In this document: positions 5,319 through 54,223 of the stretch, piece after piece | Layout of the letters: the number at the start of each line of letters is the position of its first letter | How positions within the stretch are numbered: the first letter of the stretch is position 1 | Origin: Mesaphorura yosii | Taxonomy: Eukaryota; Arthropoda; Collembola; Poduromorpha; Tullbergiidae | Direction: 5' to 3' | NCBI GenBank assembly: GCA_009869945.1 | Contig: WIXG01000064.1 | Span: forward strand, 124,001 to 188,000 | Length of the DNA: 64,000 nt | Translations under genes and position numbers: made by a program | Notes under the pieces: generated by a model | Told to the model about the DNA's origin: nothing | Database searches by the model: none | The model's input: the letters and a program-made list of their open reading frames with translations, nothing else

Positions 5319-8300
5319 TCACCGACTCCCTAAATTCCCACCCGTGCCCTGTGAAGGATTGTTCACTACCCGAATGGTGGGCTGTCCCTGAGCAGTAGAG
5401 CCTGGAGTCTGAGTATTATTTCCAACATAACCTATTACATTAATTAATTGCTGAGGTTGAGGTGGCCGGTTTGGCGGCGGCGCTGGAGCAATTTGTCTGT
5501 AGGCGGTGGGTCTTGCCAAGCCCACAGCTCCACCGCCTCCGCTGCCCTGTCTCGCGTTCAATGGAGCTCCTCCCAAGGAAGATGCCAACATGGGAGTGGC
5601 AGAGGCAATTGGGTTCAAACGACTGCCCCCAGTCCTTTGAGTCACTTGTGGCTGGCCAGATGACGCAACTAATCTGTCCAACAGAGTTCCGTATGAAGAC
5701 GAGGTTGCAACATTCACCCCTCTGGCGGAAGAAGGATCAAAACGGTTCGCCGTAGATAAGCCAGAGGAGTCAGCAGAAGGAGTTCCGGCCAACAATGCAC
5801 TCAATCTGGGTGTTGTTGTGGAGTATGGTACAGGATTTGTTGCAATATTGGGCGATATTGGACTTAAGATTGATGTTATTGATGGACTTTGCGGCGATTG
5901 CATTGGTGACAATCCATTTGTCTGTGGATTTGTTGAAGACATAATCGGCGGAGATCCCAGGAGATCGTTCAGCGTTATTGAATTGCTATTACTGTTTTGC
6001 ACAGGCTTAGTCGGAGACAGGCTGGAGGTCACCACATTCATTCCAGTGTTGGTAGCGGCACCCTTTCTCATGGCACCGTCAAGCTTCTGTCCCAACTCTG
6101 GTCCAATTGCTTCGGATAATGCGTTGAACAGTGTGTCTACGCCGTCCTGTTGATGACGCGCGGCGCTATTTCCGGCGTCAAAAATAATTTGATTTTGGTT
6201 TTGATTGACCAAGGAGGTGGTTGGATGAGGTGACGATGAAGGAGCTCCACCCAGATTCAGGTTTAAGTTGAGGTTCAAATCGAGGTTAAGACCATCAATT
6301 GTAGCCGTCGGTCCGCCAGCTTGGTTTCTGAAGGCAGCCCTTGATGTAGACGGTGCCGAATTTAGTAAGGAATGCAGATCAGGTACGTTGAGTTCCTCAA
6401 GCTCCCTTTGGCTCGTGTCGTTACACTTCGACTGCTGAGCAGGTCCAATCGTGGCGGAGATTGTAGCGGTACTGGTGCCTCTATTTCCTGCCAAGCCTGC
6501 GCTGTTAATCATTTGCGCTTGATGGTTAATTGAGCTAGGAGCCGAATTAATAATTATACCAGGATTTAAGATGGTCGCCCCAGAGTTAGCCGGGCTCATA
6601 TTTAGAGATAGTGCATTTTGCCTGAGTATTTGCTGTTGCTGAGGAGTTAACGTCATGGCGTTGGCATTATTTGAAAATCTCAGGATTGTGTTCAAGCCAT
6701 TCAAGGCGGGGTTACTCGAAGTGCTTGGCGAAATTAGTGACGTCGTGGTCACATAATTTTGTTGTTGGCCCGCATTAAGTAAACTGTCCAAGCTGATGGT
6801 GTTCAAGTTCAAGCTGACACTTCCGTTGTGCTGATGGTGGGCACCAGTGTTTGTGATTATCATGATAGGCTGTTGCTGAGATGTCTGAGGCTGGCTCTGG
6901 ACCAAATGCTGTGATTGCTGCGACTGATGCACAATTTGATTCAGTTGTTGTTGGAGGTTGTGCTGCTTCTGATGGTCCATCGCGTTGCCCAGTTGAACCT
7001 GGCTCGAATTTGGGTTCTGGGGTTGAGGTTGAATGACTGTCATCGGTTTCGGATTAGGAGCCAGGAGAAGAGTCGCCAACGCCGGCTTTTTCAATCTTAA
7101 ACTATTACTGTTGGGTACCGGATTTGTGGGAGGTTGCTTCAATAATTGCTGCGGTTGCTGTTGATGGTGAAGCTGTGCCGTTGTCTGAATCTTGGGCACT
7201 GTATAGCAGGCATTGCCTGTGCTCGTAACTATGCTTGCACTGGACTGCTGCAGGTTGACATTAATAATTTGTGGCCTCGTGAGAAGTGGCTGCTGGTGAA
7301 CGACTCTTGCTGAATTTAGATTCAGGTTTAAATTCACATTGGCTCCAGATGCTTGAATGGCGGGCTGTGGCGGCTGCATAATGGTCGCAGTTTGAGGCGC
7401 AATGCTGTAATGTATTTGAGGATTCGCAATTTGAGCTTGTTGAATTGATCTGGGCTGTGGATGAACGATTTGAACAGGAGGTTGAGATGTGCTTGTCGGA
7501 CTGGCAGAACTGCTGACAACTGCAACTGCGTTGGTCGTGATCGCGTTCGATGGGCCAGAATTTGACGTTGCCACTGAACACGCCGGAGCAGGAGGGGTCT
7601 TTATCTGACCGATGTTAGGATTGGGCTTGTAGTTATTGTTATTGACGTTGATCGGTAAATTGTTGGTAGTAGTTGTAGGGTTTCTGTTTTGATTTTGACC
7701 CATATATTCGCCAATGAACATCACATGAGGCTTCGGCTGGCCAACCTTCTGGTAAGTGATTTTGCATGGTCGACGCCCATCTTCAGTGAAAATATCCGTA
7801 AACTGTCGTACGTAAAGTTGGACATGCCTCAAGGATCCCAACTCAAACTGGCATTTTGTACTCGGAATACTTCCTGGTTGAGATCTCGTGTCTGAACCAT
7901 GCACGACAGAAAGGTTGTTGTTGATTGGCTCTGCAAAGGACTCCTGTTCAAGTTCTCCGAAGTATGACTCAGTCCCATTTCTCTGGAAAATAGACAATTT
8001 TGTTGAGTGCGGTCTCTTTCTTCTCTCGGTTTCCAGGATGTATTCATCAACTTTTCGAATATAATTCTCGCTCATAATTGGTCGATGAACTGCTCGCTCT
8101 GCCGGGCGTCCAATTCGGGAGAGTTCTTCCAAGTTCGTCGGCGTGCTCATCGGTGGATACTCGATATAGTTCTGGAAAAATTAAAATTGAAATTGAACAT
8201 TCGAATTGAGTTGAGTCTGAGGCAACATTGTTAAAGTTTCTTACAATCGGTGGAAGTTTGAGGGTTTCCGATGGATTGCACCTCTCGGCCAACACACGTT

Positions 8301-9792
8301 CCGGTAATCTTTTCAAGACTGCTTTCGTGAACTGCAAAAATTGAGCGAGATCTTCCTGCTTATGTATCTTCCCGAAAATCGTTTCCCATTCTGCTTGATT
8401 GGGAATTGGATTCTTTGGAGGCAACTTATAGCGAGCATTTTGTGTCTGAATACTTCGAGATTGTTTTGCCTGAATTGCAAATGTTCGGACCGCATTCTTG
8501 ATTTGAGGAGAATTCCACTTGTAGCGTTCAAACTGTCTAACATTGGCTATCAAGCCCACCGACTTTGACGGGTCTAAGCAAAGCCCCGAGTACGTTCGGA
8601 GTAGAAGTTGCTTTTCTACTTCCAATCTTTGCCTTAAACTTAATCTGTCGAAATCACGATCGTCGGGTTTTGCCTCAGCTTCTTCACCACTTGCCATTCT
8701 TAGACGTTTGGAAGCAGGTTCATTGTCCTCATCATCCTTTTCGGATCCCTGATGGCCAGGAACATGATTTTGCTCGCTTGGTGCGGGAATGTTTCCGTTT
8801 GCCGTACTCAGTCTTTTGTACAATTTTCTATCTTCAATGCTGGTCGCAACAAGTTGTTTTACGTCAGAAGATATCGTGTAGTTTGTGGGCTTCAGAAGCA
8901 CTTTCTTCACAACAGGTGAATTCCTCTTGGATAAATTCGAAGTGAATCGTCGATGATCCCGAATTTCACAAACAACGCAACCAAGATATCTCATCAGATT
9001 TACGCCGTCAATTTTTTCCAGTTTTTGTATCAGTTTGAGTGGGACAATTTCTTGGTCGATACAATCAAGTATGTAAGTTTCACTGTATGGTATTTCGTGT
9101 GACTCTTTGAATACTTGAATTTCAGTCGCATCATTTCCTTCCAATTCTCGTACGTAACAGCAATACGTGTAACCTCGTCCCGGTGGGTACAGATTAATTA
9201 TTAGCACAGCCTTGTTTTTTCTTCGTAGGATTTCTCCATATCGATGTTTACTTGAGTATGGGCTTGACATTCTTCTCTCTTCGTCATCATCTTCCTCGTC
9301 CTCCTCCTCGTTGTTTTCTTCCTGTTCATTTTCTTCTTTGATATTGCGCGATGAAACTCTGCTGTTTTCATTATAGTGATCCCCAGGATATTTGTCGTCA
9401 CCTGGATTCTTTCGGTCACCTCCCTGCGTACTAACCACCGGATCGGAGCATCCATCTCTCTGCATCACTGAAAGTGCAGATTCGGTGTCAAGCTCTTTCG
9501 CACAGTTAGTATGAGTGTTCGGGTTAGTTAAGCTCTCCAGAAGTTTTTCATTCATGTCTTCGCCAAGAGAGCGAATTACCACACGATATGTCACAATGAA
9601 ACTTTCATTAGCATTTCTAGGTTGTGTCCATAAACTGGATGGATCACCAGAAATAAGTTCTCTTAAACGCGTGTCAACAACGGTGCTTGTTGGGCTGGCT
9701 CTTGATTGTGTTAAAGGGAAGGATATTAATGAGCGTCCGCAACTATCGATGCTCACTCGGGGACGATCCAGTCGTGAATGCAATATCTGCAT
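5319..9792 (-). CDS. SPT20 homologue, SAGA complex subunit
   Basis: Two coding exons, 8245-9792 and 5319-8171, are joined in phase 0 across a 73-nt intron (GTAAGAAAC to TTTTTCCAG), giving about 1,466 residues. SPT20 is a structural subunit of the SAGA histone acetyltransferase coactivator in the nucleus. Residues 152-173 are strongly acidic. The SPT20 core begins near residue 186 with RRKNKAVLIINLYPPGRGYT and continues through a YILDCIDQEIVPLKLI segment and a VVCEIRDHRRF segment, matching the family order. From about residue 640 the chain is low complexity: Asn/Gln/Ser-rich with runs such as LNLDLNLNLNLNLGG, as in other long animal SPT20 tails. I start at MQIL (9790-9792), just after a likely 5'-UTR intron acceptor (TTTTGTAG); extending further upstream soon meets a stop. 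It is longer than vertebrate SUPT20H because of the tail. Confidence 0.85.
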
Positions 9793-10223
9793 TGAAACCC
9801 TACAAAAGAGGAAGATTTTCAATAACTTCAACCTGCTTGAGGCAATGCAACTGAGTAATTTTCGCTACCATTGAAGTTAATAAGTACACTTACCTAATTA
9901 AATCGCTTCAAATGGAAGATATTCGACGACTTCGGCGAAGAAGACTTCATGGTTCACTCTTTCCTCCACAATCTCAGTCTGCATCCCACATACCAACTTA
10001 CAATACCACTAATAGACCGAAAAGCGAAGGATAACTGGGTGGTCCTTCTAGTCAATATTAAAAAGGACGAATCACTTACAATATTGAATCAATTAAATCT
10101 GACTAAGCATGCATATCACCAATCAGAATCATAAAAGAGTCAAAAGTCTGTAAAATCCTACACTGGTTACTTACAAAATCTCCTCCGGGAATTAGCGACT
10201 AACAAAAGTTAGTTAGTTGATCA
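9793..10223. other. SPT20 5' leader and possible shared promoter region
   Basis: A minus-strand donor-like TTAG/GTAAGTG near 9890 pairs with the acceptor at about 9801 and suggests a 5'-UTR exon of SPT20 upstream of 9892. No coding exon is seen. The region may be a promoter shared with whatever lies at 10224. Confidence 0.35.
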
Positions 10224-10611: not shown

Positions 10612-11650
10612 CGACTCTTTATGTGGAGTGTACAGCTAGAGAACATGTAGCTTTTCTTCTTGAACCGCGTTTTAAATGTAGTGGTAAGAGATAGGATACT
10701 TGCTCTTCTCTGTTGGCATTTGTTTCCAACCTGTCTTCGATTGCAGCCTGTGTCTGAATTCTGAATCTGAATTACTTGTACAATGCGCGCAATATGCCAA
10801 TGGGTAGCACAAGCCTGAGCAGCCAAGGTGGTGCAGCCTTGCTTCTTGTTCATTACTCGGTAATAATAATGTGGTACACTTTTGTTGCCTTCTTTCTAAG
10901 CGATAGCCATTAAATGAAATATGTACATTGCAAGCTCTTTTGGCAATGTTAACAATTAAACCCTCTGAATATTGCCATTACGTTTGCTACATTGCCAAAA
11001 GCAAAAAGACAAGCATATGCTATTTATTCAAGGAGCCACGTCTTGGGACTTGCGCTGAGAGTAATCAAGTGTGAAATATGGTTGATTTTTGCATTAACAG
11101 TACCAGCTATGTCAAACAAATGCAAGAACTGTGGAATTGTTGGTCAGTACAGGTGGCGTGTGGAAAATGGTGCAACAAAGGCTTCACCCTTCGATTTGTC
11201 ATTCCGATTACTAATTACAAGAAATTGATGTAAGATTGCATAGAACAGACGCGTATACCGTAGCCGTGTGCGCTTCGATCCATCGCTGCCGGTATCATTA
11301 CCATATGAGTGATATGATACTGACTACGATTGCACACAGTTTAACATCGAGTTGGGAGTATAACTGAATTGAATGTGCTCCTGATTCCTTATGTAAATTC
11401 AGAGTTCTTTTGTCCCATGTTCTGTCATTATTATAATGAGCAGTTCCATGCCAGCGCCTCTTTCTGTTTCAAGCGTGCTGGATGGTCAGTACAGTACAGC
11501 ATAAGGAGGTGTAGTTCAAGGAGGTCATGAAACGGCAGGTAAGATTTAATGTCTCAGTTCGACTCGAGAGGTTCATGTCAGCGAATGAGTTGTATCGCAG
11601 TGTTCAGGGACATTTAATTCGACAGAAGAAGGCTCCACCAGCCGGTCAGT
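10612..11650. other. Intergenic, no gene recognised
   Basis: Only short unconvincing ORFs on both strands (for example 10992-11228 plus), with no recognisable domain. Confidence 0.45.
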
Positions 11651-11658
11651 TATAAATA
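11651..11658 (+). promoter_or_regulatory. TATA box of the H2B variant gene
   Basis: TATAAATA followed about 25-30 nt later by an initiator-like TCACTAGTTG. The start codon is at 11819, after a probable short 5'-UTR intron (donor AACT/GTAAGA near 11733, acceptor TTTATTTCAG near 11792). Confidence 0.65.
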
Positions 11659-11818
11659 AGCACCCAGATCATTTCATCACTAGTTGTCCGACTTCCGTCG
11701 TGCTGAGCTGCATCATCTCCCGAAGATAAAACTGTAAGATAGCAAACATTCCCAAAACTATAAAAGCTCGAATGGACTTGATCTTTATTTCAGACTGCTC
11801 CGTCGCCATTAGTTCTCA

Positions 11819-12716
11819 ATGGATTCAACCGATCAGATTGAGGAATCAATGGACGAATCAATGGACGAAACAATGGATGAATCAATGGTTCTTGATGGTT
11901 CCGTCGAAAAAGCTCCTGAAGCAGGACCGGCGCCGAGGAAGCCTACAGTTCCACCTGGCAATAAACGAGGAAGACCTGTCAAGCTCACTCCCGGTCCGAC
12001 GACGATGCTGCCACGAAGTAGGAATTTTCTCACTCTCAAGTTACTATTCTTAGCTATGCTTGCGTATGAAAATTGTATTCGTGTGTGTAGATCGTGCTCT
12101 TGAGAGAGTTGCTAGTCCTGCGCAACACACACAAGAACTTTTTAATACAAACGAAGAAGGTGAATCAAGCTATACCGAGGATGAAACGAGTGGAATTACG
12201 GAGGAGGGTGAAAGTGGAACCGAAGAAGAGGAGTCGGAGGAAGAAGAAAATCAACTGGAGGAAGATGACGGCGCTGCTGATGAACCTGAAACTGAAGTCG
12301 TGAGGCCGGCGGCCACAGCCGCAGCTGCTGCCCAAGCACCTTTACCGAAGGCGAAGTCCAAGTCGATGGGGAAGGGACAGAAAAATATTAATATAGATGG
12401 GAAGAAAAAACGTAAAAAGGCCCAACCAAGTGCCTACACCATGTACATTTACAAGGTTCATCGCCAACTCCATAAGGACTTGACAGTTTCAAACAAGGCA
12501 ATGGAAATATTGAACTCATTCACCAATGACATGTTCGAAAGAATCGCCACCGAAGCAGCAAGTCTGGCTAAACTTAATCGCAAACACACTTTGGGGTCAC
12601 ACGAGGTTGCAACTGCGACTCGATTGATTCTCGGATACAATTCTCTTGGCGACCATGCTATAGCTGAAGGAATGAAGTCATTGGCTTTGTATCAACGTAG
12701 TATTGAGAAAGAGTGA
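11819..12716 (+). CDS. Divergent histone H2B variant with AT-hook and acidic N-terminal extension
   Basis: Exons 11819-12017 and 12091-12716 join in frame across a 73-nt intron (CGAA/GTAGG to GTGTGTAG) to give 274 residues. The last ~105 residues are an H2B histone fold: KKRKKAQPSAYTMYIYKVHR aligns with the canonical H2B KKRKRKESYAIYIYKV region, followed by NKAMEILNSFTNDMFERIA and SLAKLNRKHTLGSHEVATAT. The C-terminal helix ends in IEKE. Canonical H2B is about 125 residues and intronless. Here about 165 extra residues precede the fold: MDES/MDET repeats (10-23), an AT-hook-like KRGRPVK (49-55), a Glu/Asp-rich block (about 90-132) and an Ala-rich stretch. A poly(A) signal rather than only a histone stem-loop context suggests replication-independent expression. 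Such divergent H2Bs are usually germline-specific; that is inference. The extension is acidic, unlike the basic tail of normal H2B. Confidence 0.88.
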
Positions 12717-13036
12717 GACAGAATTGTGTAGTCTCCCATTCTTCATCATACTAATTTTTTAATCTAAATCAACTTTCCTTTCTCATGTCAAGAGTAATTT
12801 CGAGTAATTTGAATCCTTCCTAGTACGTAAAACCTAATTTTAGCATTTTTACCTTTCGAGCACGATTTTATCAACTATTTTAACTTGGTTTTAACTCTGC
12901 GCTTCAGTCTGGAAGCCGAATCATTTTCTTAAAGCATTTCACTGCAACAGAAGTAACATCGTAATAGTATTTAAAGCGTTTAGTACGTATGAATGCATCT
13001 AGTTTGTAAGTTCCAAATTCAAAAACCTGAAAGATG

Positions 13037-13042
13037 AATAAA
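13037..13042 (+). other. Poly(A) signal of the H2B variant gene
   Basis: AATAAA about 320 nt after the stop codon. It indicates a polyadenylated mRNA, in contrast with replication-dependent histone genes. Confidence 0.5.
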
Positions 13043-13609
13043 AGTTGAAATATTTGATTTCATGCAAAACCACGCCTGATAATTCGGAGAAATTTTTGTT
13101 TATTAATGAAATTGCCATAAACTACTCTTGCTAGAAGGGGGACTTCTGGTTGTGCAGTTGGAAGTATAGTTGTTTGGTATTTCATCAGAATCATCTGCAA
13201 AGAAGCAGGCGCAATATATTTGCACAGATGGTTATTCCGATGCTCACAACCAGAGGCTATTAATTCGTTCGCTTCTTGCTAATTTTAATCAACACATGCC
13301 AATAATGACTATTACTATTAATTTCCACATAAAGTCAGAGTGTAAGTCGAATTACAATCAAAACCACAATTTTGAATTGAACTGCAACTGGATTCAATTC
13401 AATTTAATTTAGTTTTATTAAGTGTCAAATGAGTCAATAATCACATACTGCGGATTTGGCGGATTTACGACTTATTGCATTGAGCACTTGCACCAGTTCG
13501 TTTCGCAATTTGTCTTGCGTCAATTAATTTTAAAGTGCGACAACAAATCATTTCACCGAATTGGGCCAATGTCTTATCTGGAATTGCTTGAATCATGAGC
13601 TTGCTCAGA
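13043..13609. other. Intergenic, no gene recognised
   Basis: AT-rich sequence between the H2B poly(A) signal and the DPBB promoter; nothing else recognised. Confidence 0.5.
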
Positions 13610-13617
13610 TATAAATA
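13610..13617 (+). promoter_or_regulatory. TATA box of the DPBB protein gene
   Basis: TATAAATA about 107 nt upstream of the start codon at 13717, predicting transcription from about 13640. Confidence 0.65.
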
Positions 13618-13716
13618 CGCCGAGAACTCCACCGATAATCATTCGAATTTCGAATTGAATTAACTAACCTATTTTTGCAACTCAAAAGCCCCAAGTACTC
13701 TTAGCAGCGTTTCAAA

Positions 13717-14630
13717 ATGTACCCAACAACATTTGTTTGTCTCATTATAGCTGCCGGGATCGCAAGCGTTCGAGGCGACTGCTGGAACACCGGCTGTCAA
13801 TTGAACACCTGGGCTGTGACTGGGTGCGCGCAATATGGACGAGTTGAGACTGCACGCAGTCCCTGCAATGGCGGCTACATTTTCACTTGCTGCACTGGTG
13901 GGGGTCAAACGTCGACATCGGCACCCGCACCGGCACCCTCTCCAGCACCTGCACCAGGACCTTCGGGCGATTGGAGTGAGTTAAAATTACAATTTATCGT
14001 AAAGCCTAGACATTTTGTAGCACAAATGGATTTGTTTGGGCAGAAACCGGGGACATCACATATTACAACCTTGGGATGACTGCTTGCGGCCAAACGTTCA
14101 CGGACAATGGTAAATATACACGCATTGGTTATATTTGTATGTAGATTGTCTGTATTGTCCGCCATATTTGTCTGCCCTTTGGCTAGAATCAGGTTTTTCT
14201 TGTCTGTTCTTACGGCAAATACACACGCATTGGTTTTCTGTTACCCTCATGCAAACGAGCTCGCACCCCCCACCCCAGACAAACGTCGCCCTGAAACTGT
14301 ACATAAAAGAACCGTTGCAGACAAATCCCTCCTCTTGTAGACAAATGGCCGCAGTTGATTTCAAATTCTCCAACATATCCCACTTTTTTTTTAGATCTTG
14401 TCGCTGCCATCGCTTTCAGCTACTGGACAGCCGCTAATCCCAACCTCGACCCAATGTGCGGTAGACAAGCTCTTGTACAAGACCCTGCATCGGGGAAGAG
14501 CGTGACCGTGAGAATCTTCGACAAATGTGGTGGATGCAAAGCTGGCGACATTGACTTGTCCCCAGCTGCTTTCCAGCAACTTCGTGACTTTGGAGTCGGA
14601 AGATTCCAAGGGCAGTGGAAATTCATTTAA
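13717..14630 (+). CDS. Secreted expansin-like double-psi beta-barrel (RlpA/EG45-type) protein
   Basis: Three exons are visible. Exon 1 (from 13717) encodes a signal peptide (MYPTTFVCLIIAAGIASVRG), a six-cysteine module of about 40 residues ending in FTCC, and a Pro/Ala linker (SAPAPAPSPAPAPGPS). Exon 2 (about 14021-14109) and exon 3 (14395-14630) encode a DPBB domain: GDITYYNLGMTACGQTFTDN, then NPNLDPMCGR, VRIFDKCGGC and DIDLSPAAFQQL, ending GQWKF. The Asp after IF and the GDITYYN/CGG motifs are those of fungal, bacterial and plant DPBB proteins. Its role would be non-hydrolytic loosening of polysaccharide or inhibitor-like binding. The exon 1-2 junction is a problem: donor A/GTGAGT (13975) and acceptor TTGTAG (14020) leave the DPBB frame one base out, and no other GT-AG pair I tried works. 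Either a base is missing, the junction is unusual, or the gene is damaged. Such genes are rare in animals; acquisition is likely. Confidence 0.75.
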
Positions 14631-15332: not shown

Positions 15333-18300
15333 TCAAAGGAAGTGCAACTTGTTGCTGAGGCTATCGGCCGGAGCGCCACCAAGCGCCATTCCAGCGAGGA
15401 AGGCCAGCTTGTGAGCATACTGACAAGGAGCGGGGACTGCAACAGTGCCAGACCAGTTGTAGTACATGTGACACATTTTGTAGGTCAGACGTTGAATCTT
15501 GTCAGCGTCCAAGTCTCCAGAGTCGACCATCACGTTGTAAGAACAGGGACTCACAGTGCCTTGTCTGGCAGCAGCAGAGACCAAATAGAAGTCGTAGCGT
15601 TCAGGGAGTGTGATGGTATCGTCCACAATGGTTCCTGGACAGGGATTCTCATTTGAATTGGTGTTGAAGATGCGAATGTTGATTCTCTTGGTCACGACGA
15701 TGTATGTGAGCTTGGGTGGTTTCAAACCGGCATTTACATAGTAGCGTTCTAATGATGCTTTGATTTGACTTGTTTCGACATCATGCACGTAGCGGAGTTG
15801 ACCATCGCCAACGCCGTCACGATACACGATGATTCTCTCAGGAAGGGTTCCATTCTCGGCGTGGTAAGCGTCTACGCACTCTGAAAATGCGAAATATAAC
15901 ATCACTGTTTAGGTGCACAATTCTTCATGCGTTCCAACTCTTAAAGAAGTGGCCAAACTTACTATTCATATCCAATGCAAGGTTGTTTCCCAGTTCTTCC
16001 TGCCCATTGTGGCTGGAGATGGTGCTGAAGTATCTCGAGAAGCTTTCGTTGACAGTGGCCACAATCGCTCCTATCGCCGACCGTTCTCCTAGCTTCGTAA
16101 CTCCACCACCACGATAAGCATCGAAGCCAACGACCATGCATTTCTATAACCAAACACAAATGCAAAAATATGAATTCAAGAAATTCAGAGCCTTGCTCTT
16201 CTTCAGTTGAGAAGTTAGGAATTAGCGTATCCGCCATACCTTCACAGGAATTATGACACTCCATGGTTCTCCACCAAGCTTGGCGTTGATCTGAACCATA
16301 ACCTTGGTAGCAATCGACATCAGCCCTTTGTTTGTCAAATTCTTTGCCAGGAAGCATTGGGATGGAACTGTAATAAAGAAAAGTTTAACTAAGGGCTTAA
16401 TTGTTAATACGAAACTGAGCATGAGTACGGGATCATTATTTGACCGTACTCACGTGAATACATAGTCATACTCATATTGAAGAACTGATTGTTAATTCCA
16501 CCCTGAATCTGAGCGTCGTCGTCTGAATTCTAAATTGGCCTTGGGACAGAAAGAGATACAAAACAAATGCAACTTACGTCCCATGTTCACACTCAGTCTC
16601 TTTTTGACAACTGAGTACAGGTCCAGCTTGTTGTTTGGAAGAATGACGAAAAGAAGTTGGAGGTTATTTTTGGAGGTTGCGGCATCCACGGCGGACAGAT
16701 AGCTTGCACTTCTTCCGTCCGGAATTTTGATTCTGTAAATAAAGAAATGAGTATTGATTAGTATTGGACATAATTGAAATGCGAAACTTGAATGAAATGA
16801 ATGAAAAATGAAAGTTGGCTTACATGTCAAGTGGTGGACGAATGTTGAGTCCCAGCGGTCTTGCGACTTGAGTCATGAGTCTAATCAAGTTGTCAACGTT
16901 TTGAGCATCGCGTTGAGGTACCAAAATTGCCCATCTTTCCAAGTTGATGCACTTCAGCATTTGACGCTCTACAAAGAAAAGAAGAATGTGTTAATTCAAA
17001 GCCATAAACAAACGAGAAAGCCTAAATTATTGTTCTATGGGTCTATTTAAATGACTTGGCTTACTTCTAAACGCCATAGTCCAATCTGCCTTTTCGTTTG
17101 GTCGTTCAGGCTTGTTATCTCCTCCTGGTCCAAAGACAATCCCTTCCCTTGGCAGGATTCGCCCTTGGCATCTTGTCAGGTCGTTTGAAAATTCAAGGCC
17201 CCATCCAGTTAATTCTTTGATAAGCACTGGTTTTGACTGCAGGTCTCGCATGAAGGACTTGATAGCCTCGATTCGCTTTGGAGGGATCATGTGAAGATGC
17301 TCAGCCAAGGCTTTCATGAGAGTGAAGTTTGCTCGCATGTCATCCGTGAGACCCGTCATCTGACACAATTCTGGAACCAGAAGCACTCTTTGTTTCTCTT
17401 CTTTGCCACCATGGATATCCTTCTGTTTGGCTTCCACCACCAACAAAGGCTGGTCGAAATCAGTGACGTTTTTGTTGTAGCGTTTTGCAAAGTAGTCCAC
17501 GAACGTGACTTGAACTCCCTTCTGGTCGAATGTGCTTCTGGGGTTCAGGGACCACTTAATGTCGTCAACACGATAGGTTTTGTTGTTGTAACTGGTGAGA
17601 ACGATGCTGCCAACCAGAGCTTTAGTATTCTCCTTGAAGTCACCCGGAGCACTCTGCAGTCTTCGAAGGACGTCCAAACAGGTTTCCGACCGAACAACTT
17701 TGTGGGTGACTTCCACGCAGAGCAGGACTTCTTTCTCGTGGCTTCTGATTGCAGTGATATATCCTGGCCAAAGTTCAAGCTTAAACTGATTGAATTTGAT
17801 GCCCTTCGAGGGGTTGTAGAAATTTCTTCCCAATTGATTCAATTCCAGTCCAAATAAGCATTTTCGGAGCATCACGTTATAGAATTGCATGTACATGGAG
17901 TCGCCGGGGATCAGCTTGTTGACAAATTTGATTGCTGCAAAGATGTCGCAGTCCATGAGATCATCATGGGCTTTGACGACGAGGGACAGTTCTTTGTTGG
18001 AGTACAATGTTGTTCCATCGTACAGAAAGCATCCGATTTGCTCCTTGTTTTTGTGAATGATCTTCTTTCGAAAACCGACGCTGTCAATTTCAACTGAGAA
18101 TTGGACAGAATGCGTGTACAGACACCAATCGCACTCCTTCTTCAATGCAAAGTAATTGCTTAGAAGTGGAACGACATCACCAACTTTGCCTTGCTTGACT
18201 GTCCCCTCCGGTTTGGTGTGAATAAATTCGTACTTGTCAGCTCTGAATCCACGGGTTGAGACAATCTTTCCGGCGTGTCCACCAATTGCACCAGCAAGTC

Positions 18301-18553
18301 TCGCCCCTTGATGTTTCGGACCAGCTTCAGCCATCAGGGACACCAGGTCTCGTTTCTGTTGCGTCAGGGCGAGTTGTTCAAGCTCGCCTGGCAAGCAGGT
18401 GCTGGGGTCGATTTCTTCACGAGGTGCAGCAGTCAAGCCAATTGCTGCAGCCATCTGAGCCTCCGTCGCTCGTCGGGATCGAAGACGAGTGCCACGACCT
18501 CTGCCACCCGAACCAGAGCCCCCCGAACCACTGCCACTGGCTTGGCCTTCCAT
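15333..18553 (-). CDS. piwi: PIWI-clade Argonaute (Piwi/Aubergine-like)
   Basis: Six coding exons, 17065-18553, 16824-16968, 16578-16732, 16240-16367, 15963-16143 and 15333-15880, all join in frame with GT-AG introns of about 80-200 nt to give 881 residues, the usual Piwi length. Piwi proteins bind piRNAs and silence transposons in the germline. The N-terminus is Gly/Ser/Arg-rich ([13 protein letters not shown]), resembling sites of arginine methylation read by Tudor proteins. PAZ lies at about 250-380, MID about 480-630 and PIWI about 630-870. MID has [11 protein letters not shown]. The slicer residues are present: Asp in VVGFDAYRG (about 647), Glu in HNGQEEL (about 688), Asp in [13 protein letters not shown] (about 721) and His in CQYAHKLAF (about 856). 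The protein ends LSNKLHFL, as the family does. It is probably catalytically active. I cannot say which Piwi paralogue it is. Confidence 0.95.
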
Positions 18554-19295
18554 CTTCTTTCAGTTCTTGTTAATAAGAGGAAACCAGAAGTTGAGCAAAG
18601 AGTAAACTGAATGCCAATACAAGCTCGTGAGTATTAAAAGGTAAGCGTCAGCCAAGAGCTCAGTCGAGACGATGTTTTCTCAGCAAAAGTAAAATCAGGA
18701 ATGAAGAATTTCTGATACGGACCTTCAAACGAAAACTTCGGTTGTAACCTCCTTGCCCAAGCACTCCAAGAAATTTGACTGTTTGGATAGTTCTTTGTCT
18801 TCCAACATATCCAAATCACGCGGCGTTTCTACGTGGTCTGATTAGGCAGGTCTTAATTTGAAAACCATTCAAATTGATCATTCAAATAAAATATAAACTC
18901 TGCGCAACCTCGCATGAAACACATTGGGACGGTTGAATTGGAACGGGCTAATCATATGTCCGTGTAAATGCAAAGTCTTGGAAATAGAAATCCAATGACC
19001 TCGCCGATTACCGCCTGGGAAGCTTGCAACCAATTCAATCAGGTCCATGTAATCTTCCATTAATCTGAGGTTATTGTGAACCTGAACACGGAAGTGCAAA
19101 CGAATAGTAAAATAAACGAAACTGGACGACGTAAACTCGAGTTGATTAAGCTGTGGTTTGAAACCGATACACAAAGTTCAATTTTATTTAGATTCAGATT
19201 CAGATTACAGGGTAGAAAGAAAGAAATAGAGCAGAGGATTTTTCAAAGGGGCAAAAATGAAATTCTGAATTTATTGCTTATCAGTTCGTACAATA
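18554..19295. other. Intergenic, Piwi promoter side and TSSK 3' flank
   Basis: No gene recognised. It holds the upstream region of the Piwi gene and the 3' flank of the kinase gene, both on the minus strand. Confidence 0.5.
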
Positions 19296-53182: not shown

Positions 53183-54223
53183 TTATGCATTGATTTTGAA
53201 TCCTTGAAATATTTTGGTGAACTCGAATTCATCCTGTCTGATTGAACTGCAGTGTGGTGATACTCCACCACCTGCACATTTGCCATTGTCTCTGCCCGCT
53301 GACCAAAATCCCAACAGCCCAATTTGTTCCTTGTTCGCCCAGGCTACCAGCTGCTTCGCGTGTACAGGTTCGAATATTCTCCCATTAAAATTGCGGCCAA
53401 TCATGACTGTGATTCCCAGCATTCTCTTAATTTCTACATCTGACTTTTCTGGCCAGATCTGTTTCATCTGTTCAATGACTGCATTTCCTGCACTGATGAC
53501 GCTGTCGCCGAATTTGAGAGAAGACGGATACTCCATCGTCATTGCGTTCACGATGTCCACCCGTACGCCATTGGCCTTTGCAGCTCGGAGGATGTCCGTG
53601 CCAAGCGCATTTGTTAATCCGTACTGATCACCTTGAACTGGTAACGTGAAGCTGACCTTTGTATCTGGCCGTTCTGCTTGAACTTGTGCCAGAGCTTTGG
53701 TCACTACGTTGTTGTTGATTGGGGCCTCCACGTCTATGTCCAAATGTTTTGATCCAACCGCGTCCAGGCTCTGCTTGTATACATTTACTAACTGTGGGAC
53801 GGTGTGGCAAAGATGCTCCAAATACGGACCCACGGCACCACCGAAGGCTAAAATGAACTTTGTACCAGATGCTTGGGCTTCCTTGATGGGGTCGAGTATG
53901 ACCGAGTCATTCAGCTTATTTTCACCACCCCAATACGGCACACAACCCTCATAGCTTCCCAAAACAAATGCCAAATGGAATGCCCTCTGTCCGGTTTTGC
54001 TCGTGATTTCTTCAAATGAAGGCTTGCTTGGCTTTAGGTTCACATCGTAATATGGAGCGAACAAAGAATCTAAAGCGAGTAATATAGGAGAATCAATATT
54101 AGTACGTCTTCTTTAAGCAAAAAGATCAGGAACACAACTGAAAAATACAGTTAGCTTACTTCCCAACTGAATCAGGGGAAGTAGCAAGTAGATTATCCAA
54201 GGAATTGGAATCGAAAATTGCAT
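53183..54223 (-). CDS. Secreted GH18 glycoside hydrolase (chitinase-like, microbial type)
   Basis: Exon 54160-54223 encodes a signal peptide (MQFSIPIPWIIYLLLPLIQLG) and joins across a 90-nt intron to one catalytic exon, 53183-54069, giving 316 residues. GH18 enzymes cleave chitin or related beta-1,4-GlcNAc polymers outside the cell. The barrel motifs are clear: FAPYYDVNL at strand 1, FILAFGGAVGP at strand 3, and the catalytic DxDxE as LDIDVEAP (Asp132, Asp134, Glu136), followed by VNAMTMEY and a Trp near the end (LLGFWSAGRDNGKC). The intact Glu predicts activity. The arrangement, including GCVPYWGG, WPEKSD, IGRNFNG and GGGVSPHCSS, resembles compact bacterial and fungal GH18s, not the insect chitinase group with KxxxxxGGW and FDGxDLDWEYP. 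Only the signal sequence is on a separate exon, as often seen after horizontal transfer. Confidence 0.88.

Follow-up and report, generated by a model that had tools for sequence, protein, structure and literature searches.

The number of H2B variants identified in animals is small (PMC8857922), and the portions of the literature available to us describe several systems with features in common with the gene reported here. In flowering plants, to which it is confined, H2B.8 is a sperm histone whose negatively charged IDR is associated with phase separation and silent AT-rich chromatin. The Arabidopsis H2B.8 IDR still condenses nuclei after being scrambled or swapped for similarly negative animal IDRs (PMC9668745). 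The SPKK tails of sperm H2Bs bind A/T-rich DNA in its minor groove (PMC9903204). The H2B variants described for mammals belong to the germline, and several have introns or poly(A) signals. The account of Oikopleura dioica describes many divergent, lineage-specific histones that are commonly male-specific. Acidic disorder also occurs in the FACT subunit SPT16, where a phosphorylated segment is described as binding the H2B tail and partly replacing DNA (PMC9376062).

We analyzed a 64,000-nucleotide stretch of the Mesaphorura yosii assembly (the window) that carries a gene for an H2B-type histone with a long N-terminal extension (Table 1). The predicted coding sequence runs from an ATG at 11819 to a stop codon at 12714-12716, and the joined frame encodes 274 amino acids. 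Exon 1 encodes an acidic block with MDES/MDET repeats (residues 1-30) followed by most of a block containing an AT-hook core (residues 31-66).

Table 1. Features of the H2B-type gene (positions in the window)
Feature	Position	Strand	Basis
Exon 1, coding part, residues 1-66	11819-12017	+	frame translation, codon score
AT-hook core KRGRPVK, residues 49-55 (RGRP 50-53)	11963-11983	+	motif match
Predicted intron, 73 nt, phase 1, GTAGGA...TGTGTAG	12018-12090	+	GT-AG, in-frame join
Exon 2 with stop codon, residues 67-274	12091-12716	+	open frame
Acidic block, residues 73-137, no K/R (65 residues)	12108-12302	+	charge count
Basic H2B-like tail, seemingly retained, residues 150-182 (GKGQKNI...GKKKRKK)	12339-12437	+	fly alignment, PDB matches
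Histone fold and C-terminal helix, residues 183-274	12438-12713	+	PF00125, PDB H2B chains, fly H2B identity
AATAAA poly(A) signal	13037-13042	+	read in sequence

Codon usage supports both exons. We scored each segment against a table of 2,573 codons from genes of the window. Exon 1 scored 22.0 bits in frame, a value that 0.36% of 2,503 random pieces matched; these pieces were drawn from outside five excluded gene regions and credited with the best of their six frames. When the repeats were removed, the in-frame score fell to 14.1 and one reverse frame scored 11.4; the AT-hook part taken alone thus provides weaker coding evidence. In exon 2, the tail (36.0) and the fold (19.7) scored well in frame and negatively in the five other frames. 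Both flanks of the gene scored negatively in all six frames.

The junction between 12017 and 12091 is a prediction with moderate splice signals. Its donor (GAA/GTAGGA) and acceptor (TGTGTAG) look weaker than the sites of five introns of 79-514 nt from H2A.Z, H3.3 and one H2B gene of this genome. Alternative in-phase acceptors at 12109 and 12136 would cost the chain a few residues, and an ATG at 12066, inside the intron, can open exon 2. Together with the small margin of exon 1 over a reverse frame once its repeats are removed, these features could mean that exon 1 belongs to another transcript or that a different acceptor is used, in which case the AT-hook and the histone fold would not form one protein. 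We consider such an error quite improbable, because codon use across the whole of exon 1 is coding-like in the expected frame and the join is in phase. The acidic block shares exon 2 with the fold regardless.

The anatomy of the gene is unlike that of replication-dependent histone genes, which have a 3' stem-loop and lack poly(A) signals and introns. A direct scan of window positions 11000-14500 detected no histone stem-loop (RF00032), and a genome-wide search, in which 75 of 10,958 first-look candidates were scored, listed none on the contig that carries the gene (C64). The 93-Mb assembly (1,127 contigs), for which histone gene counts are lower bounds, contains at least eight H2B-like genes, including this one. 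The seven others each have a stem-loop match 31-172 nt past the last codon; six pass the 34-bit cut-off and the seventh, on contig C817, scores 33.1. In control searches, all 14 of 14 prokaryotes gave matches at a loose E of 10, none of them above the cut-off. The initial annotation had described an intron-bearing gene with a poly(A) signal that is not a replication-dependent histone. The last point agrees with the predicted intron, the poly(A) signal and the lack of a stem-loop, against the stem-loops of the other seven genes. The poly(A) signal is readily located, but the intron, though GT-AG and in phase, is a prediction.

The C-terminal part of the protein is a strongly diverged H2B-type histone rather than a canonical one, judged by its sequence. 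The Pfam Histone family (PF00125) matched residues 153-245 (E 9.4e-16), and the best 60 of 178 PDB sequences matched were all named H2B. From YIYKV onward, 44 of 86 core residues are identical to fly H2B. For scale, yeast and Arabidopsis H2B share 72/86 and 71/85 with the fly core (these reference sequences were entered by hand), and the seven other H2Bs of this genome range from 54 to 85 of 86. These matches bear out the initial assignment of the C-terminal part to H2B.

We asked how this divergence is distributed. Columns that are invariant in ten other H2Bs were preferentially kept (19/27, compared with 26/62 of the other columns; Fisher p 0.02). When the same test was applied to each of the ten others, 27 of 27-32 columns were kept, making the window gene the least conserved of the eleven. 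In human numbering, taken as the fly index plus 2, the residues changed here and invariant in the ten are L45, P50, R92, P103, G104, E105, S112 and A117. Y40, Y42, K57, D68, E76, T88, E93, R99, H109 and E113 are among those kept, and we take them to have contact roles. The start of alpha-C is altered: P103-G104-E105 is lost, one residue is inserted before the helix and K108 is replaced by D. None of the other seven H2B-like genes departs from the norm at the alpha-C start. Position 120 is Leu in place of Lys, and two paralogues also lack this Lys (Ser in C817, Arg in C78). We assume that K120 is the ubiquitination site and that E105 and E113 belong to the acidic patch. In a tree of the eleven H2Bs, the window gene formed the longest branch (1.25), and a search for a sister paralogue found none with support (supports 17-69).

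Two alternatives draw on this divergence. The longest branch of the eleven and the fewest invariant residues kept are what a decaying H2B duplicate under relaxed drift could show. We regard decay as very improbable, given that 274 codons are open, that invariant columns are retained in excess and that codon use is coding-like. Under free drift, 206 codons would stay open by chance with a probability of (61/64)^206, or ~5e-5, if all codons are assumed equal. At the sequence level, the H2B variant gene is real. The protein could instead act outside nucleosomes, for example within a regulatory dimer or as part of a sperm structure, the latter as described for H2B.L in the subacrosome in the part of the literature available. 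The strong divergence, the branch of 1.25 with no supported sister and the changes at residues invariant elsewhere, together with the H2B.L precedent, fit such a role, but many conserved fold residues are kept and the best PDB matches all lie within H2B. Also against it, the remaining basic tail could serve as a nuclear signal. We judge a role outside nucleosomes improbable, although the changes at invariant residues could weaken the fit of a nucleosomal histone.

The N-terminal extension alternates acidic, basic (with the AT-hook), acidic and basic segments. Net charges are -12 for residues 1-30, +8 for residues 31-80 (with KRGRPVK), -26 for residues 81-135 and +11 for residues 136-182. The MDES/MDET repeats (11837-11884), the KRGRPVK core and the acidic block named in the initial annotation could all be located. 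We take an RGRP core flanked by K/R to be the HMGA-type AT-hook consensus. A flanked core arose in 19 of 200,000 shuffles of the tail and a bare RGRP in 426 of 200,000. The Pfam AT-hook profile gave no match at an E setting of 10, but a profile of such short length can lose weak matches to the HMMER filters; the hook therefore rests on the motif. A single AT-hook usually binds weakly. An acidic segment as strong as the one found here appeared in 3 of 20,000 tail shuffles, and the net charge of residues 67-145 is -0.30 per residue. The block is probably disordered, judging from its composition and from a poor AlphaFold2 model of exon 2 alone built from a single sequence (mean pLDDT 61.4, pTM 0.26). 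In that model, pLDDT was mostly <50 over the acidic block and low nearly throughout the tail, with one helix over residues 114-164. Neither SPKK/SPKR repeats nor the KVVXETV motif of H2B.8/H2B.S occurs in the 274-amino-acid protein.

The ordinary H2B tail had been read as replaced by this extension, and our comparisons contradict that reading. Residues 156-180 align to the fly H2B tail without gaps at a score reached by 4 of 5,000 shuffles of the region; against three other tails, 151, 1,061 and 1,098 of 5,000 shuffles reached the score. Apart from two, the best 60 of 178 PDB phmmer rows start matching between residues 141 and 156. The alignment and the match starts point to an H2B that seems to carry about 150 additional residues ahead of a partly retained tail of its own.

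The placement of an acidic block beside a basic tail suggests two opposite effects on chromatin. The block could act in cis like the SPT16 segment, covering the basic tail and the DNA-binding face so that the nucleosome is labile or the dimer stays soluble until deposition, with the AT-hook as an anchor. The SPT16 segment, in the available description, binds to the tail of H2B with partial displacement of DNA (PMC9376062), and residues 156-180 resemble such a tail. The changed P103-G104-E105 and R92 might also suit a looser nucleosome. Set against this, the H2B.8 acidic tail insert is described as condensing chromatin (PMC9668745), and CK2-type sites in residues 1-150 are not enriched (a count of 9 was reached in 3,375 of 20,000 shuffles). 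We regard loosening by the same variant as rather unlikely, but it deserves serious weight. DNA binding by the hook and a chaperone-like action of the acidic block are both plausible.

We compared the extension with the tails of the other H2B-like genes, whose start codons were chosen by us and set the tail lengths and charges given here. Net charge per tail residue is -0.10 in the window gene, whereas the seven others lie between +0.12 and +0.33, and RGRP occurs in the window gene only. Three of the seven have basic tails of 105-134 residues, indicating that tail lengthening is general in this genome. A search of the genome with the full protein at E up to 1, with 18 candidates scored, detected neither exon 1 nor the acidic block a second time. 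Judged by sequence, no other H2B-like gene found in the genome has this acidic AT-hook form. Homologues without the AT-hook and the acidic block had been named at the outset as evidence against the gene. All seven paralogues are of this kind, but none is a known orthologue, so what they lack does not refute it. In GTDB genomes, 590 stretches matched a peptide pattern from the full protein and none encoded a relative, as expected for a eukaryotic gene.

The core-histone set of this genome is unusually diversified, with eight H2B-like genes, twelve H3-like loci and several H2A-like ones, many with long or odd N-terminal tails. We cataloged histone loci L009-L028 on C62, C237, C78, C817, C667, C469, C287, C339, C335, C998, C11, C773, C104, C283, C82 and C20. 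One H2B gene (L016, C62:182399-183233) has both a stem-loop match and an 88-nt intron within the histone fold. A divergent, intron-bearing H2A (L026, C104:154551-154880) is 51% identical to fly H2A and longer around loop L1. No stem-loop is listed at its locus, and an upstream frame ends in GARRGRRPVR at a likely splice site. This H2A is a possible partner of the H2B variant. On C773 (L025, 888-1040), an H3-like fold (32% over 85 amino acids to fly H3) lies at the end of a long frame whose RGRG-bearing extension is acidic and then basic. This could be an H3 variant, centromeric or otherwise, and no stem-loop is listed on C773. Another H3-like protein (L013, C339:75027-75380) has a long Ser/Glu-rich tail, with no stem-loop listed on C339; we presume it to be a possible CENP-A.

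Other genes of the window and the genome were noted in passing. Downstream of the H2B gene, an Argonaute/Piwi-type gene with PAZ and Piwi domains on two frames occupies 15333-18559 on the - strand. Upstream, also on the - strand (5319-9864), are a frame with an Spt20 SEP domain (SAGA subunit) and then a Gln/Asn-rich frame of 953 amino acids. A 309-amino-acid frame at 53183-54112 on the - strand had no Pfam match at E 0.1 and to our eye resembles a bacterial-type GH18 chitinase. Contig C22 carries six homeodomains, which we read by signature as abdA, Ubx, Antp, ftz, Scr and Dfd, an arthropod-type set compatible with Collembola. The abdA- and Ubx-type homeodomains speak against a tardigrade. COX1 was sought in the assembly and not found. 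On C420 (23869-33337; L061, L062), an uninterrupted NRPS frame of 3,156 amino acids contains three condensation domains. In a test for a link to springtail beta-lactam synthesis, searching 3,010 of its residues returned general NRPS/adenylation matches among the best 25 of 109 families, with no ACV synthetase among those 25. The presence of this frame in an animal assembly reflects horizontal transfer or contamination.

We propose, with a probability of about 0.4, that the gene encodes an H2B variant, polyadenylated and probably of the germline, with an AT-hook that favors AT-rich DNA and an acidic disordered block that condenses chromatin. The H2B fold, the frame that stays open though half the core has diverged, the preferential retention of invariant columns and the lack of a stem-loop favor this proposal, as do the precedents of H2B.8, the SPKK sperm H2Bs and the mammalian germline variants. 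The single AT-hook without a profile match and the eight changed invariant residues count against it, and chromatin could equally be loosened by an acidic block lying beside a basic tail. Under the condensing proposal, an intron-bearing, single-copy gene would yield a polyadenylated message, and the protein would probably pair with an H2A and enter nucleosomes outside S phase. By analogy with mammalian, Oikopleura and hydrozoan variants, it would most likely be used in the germline. The AT-hook would bind the minor groove of linker or neighboring AT-rich DNA. The acidic disordered block would make charge contacts with basic tails and thereby draw neighboring nucleosomes together, as does the H2B.8 insert. 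A broader version of the proposal is that this is the first animal H2B that unites in one chain an AT-hook DNA address of its own and an acidic condensing or chaperoning segment. It would represent an independent animal form of the H2B.8 strategy that dispenses with Lys120 ubiquitination and has a remodeled acidic patch, in an arthropod whose core histones are widely diversified. We offer it tentatively and think it unlikely to hold in full.

A histone that combines DNA targeting with an acidic disordered block in cis offers a test of whether tail charge patterning alone sets chromatin condensation, as argued for H2B.8, and of whether animals reached the same solution as the plant variant. The genome supplies eight H2Bs graded in tail length and charge for comparison.

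The closest comparison is with H2B.8. Both proteins, as far as H2B.8 is described in the available text, are diverged H2Bs with a long negative disordered stretch in the tail, and the block here (residues 67-145) is more acidic, at -0.30 per residue compared with -0.19 for the H2B.8 IDR composition. The KVVXETV tail motif that the available text assigns to H2B.8 is absent here, and the term AT-hook does not occur in that text on H2B.8/H2B.S (PMC7410336). H2B.8/H2B.S form a flowering-plant clade, whereas the genome studied here has arthropod-type Hox genes. We conclude that the likeness to the H2B.8 tail reflects convergence and not homology.

Sperm H2Bs with SPKK repeats, as described for sea urchins and hydrozoans in the text available, likewise have an N-terminal extension with a minor-groove, A/T-preferring motif; here a single AT-hook core stands in place of the repeats and acidic blocks are added. 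The Hydractinia SPKK H2Bs are termed replication-dependent in that text, and the window gene does not have that anatomy. Divergent or long tails are reported for the mammalian germline variants in the text examined, with less than 50% fold identity for H2B.W, H2B.L and H2B.N; the same text places introns in H2B.K and H2B.N and describes most genes for H2B.L, H2B.N and H2B.K as having poly(A) signals, as here. An AT-hook or acidic block was not found for H2B.W, H2B.L, H2B.K or H2B.N in the same text. Oikopleura dioica provides another animal genome with diversified histones, but its H2B genes are described in the available text as all intronless, stem-loop-bearing and short-tailed, unlike the window gene. 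The acidic segment of SPT16 sits in a separate chaperone subunit, whereas the acidic block here lies within the histone. Proteins with HMGA-type AT-hooks have the same K-flanked RGRP core; in this case there is one hook only, in a histone, with no Pfam match. Among the matches listed from open-licence literature, no title or opening of an abstract concerned an animal H2B with an AT-hook or an acidic extension. The initial annotation knew of no standard H2B variant with this arrangement, and the literature seen in part does not contradict this for the combination, but H2B.8 and the SPKK histones each anticipate one half. Thus, each half of the design has a precedent, and their combination in one H2B looks new.
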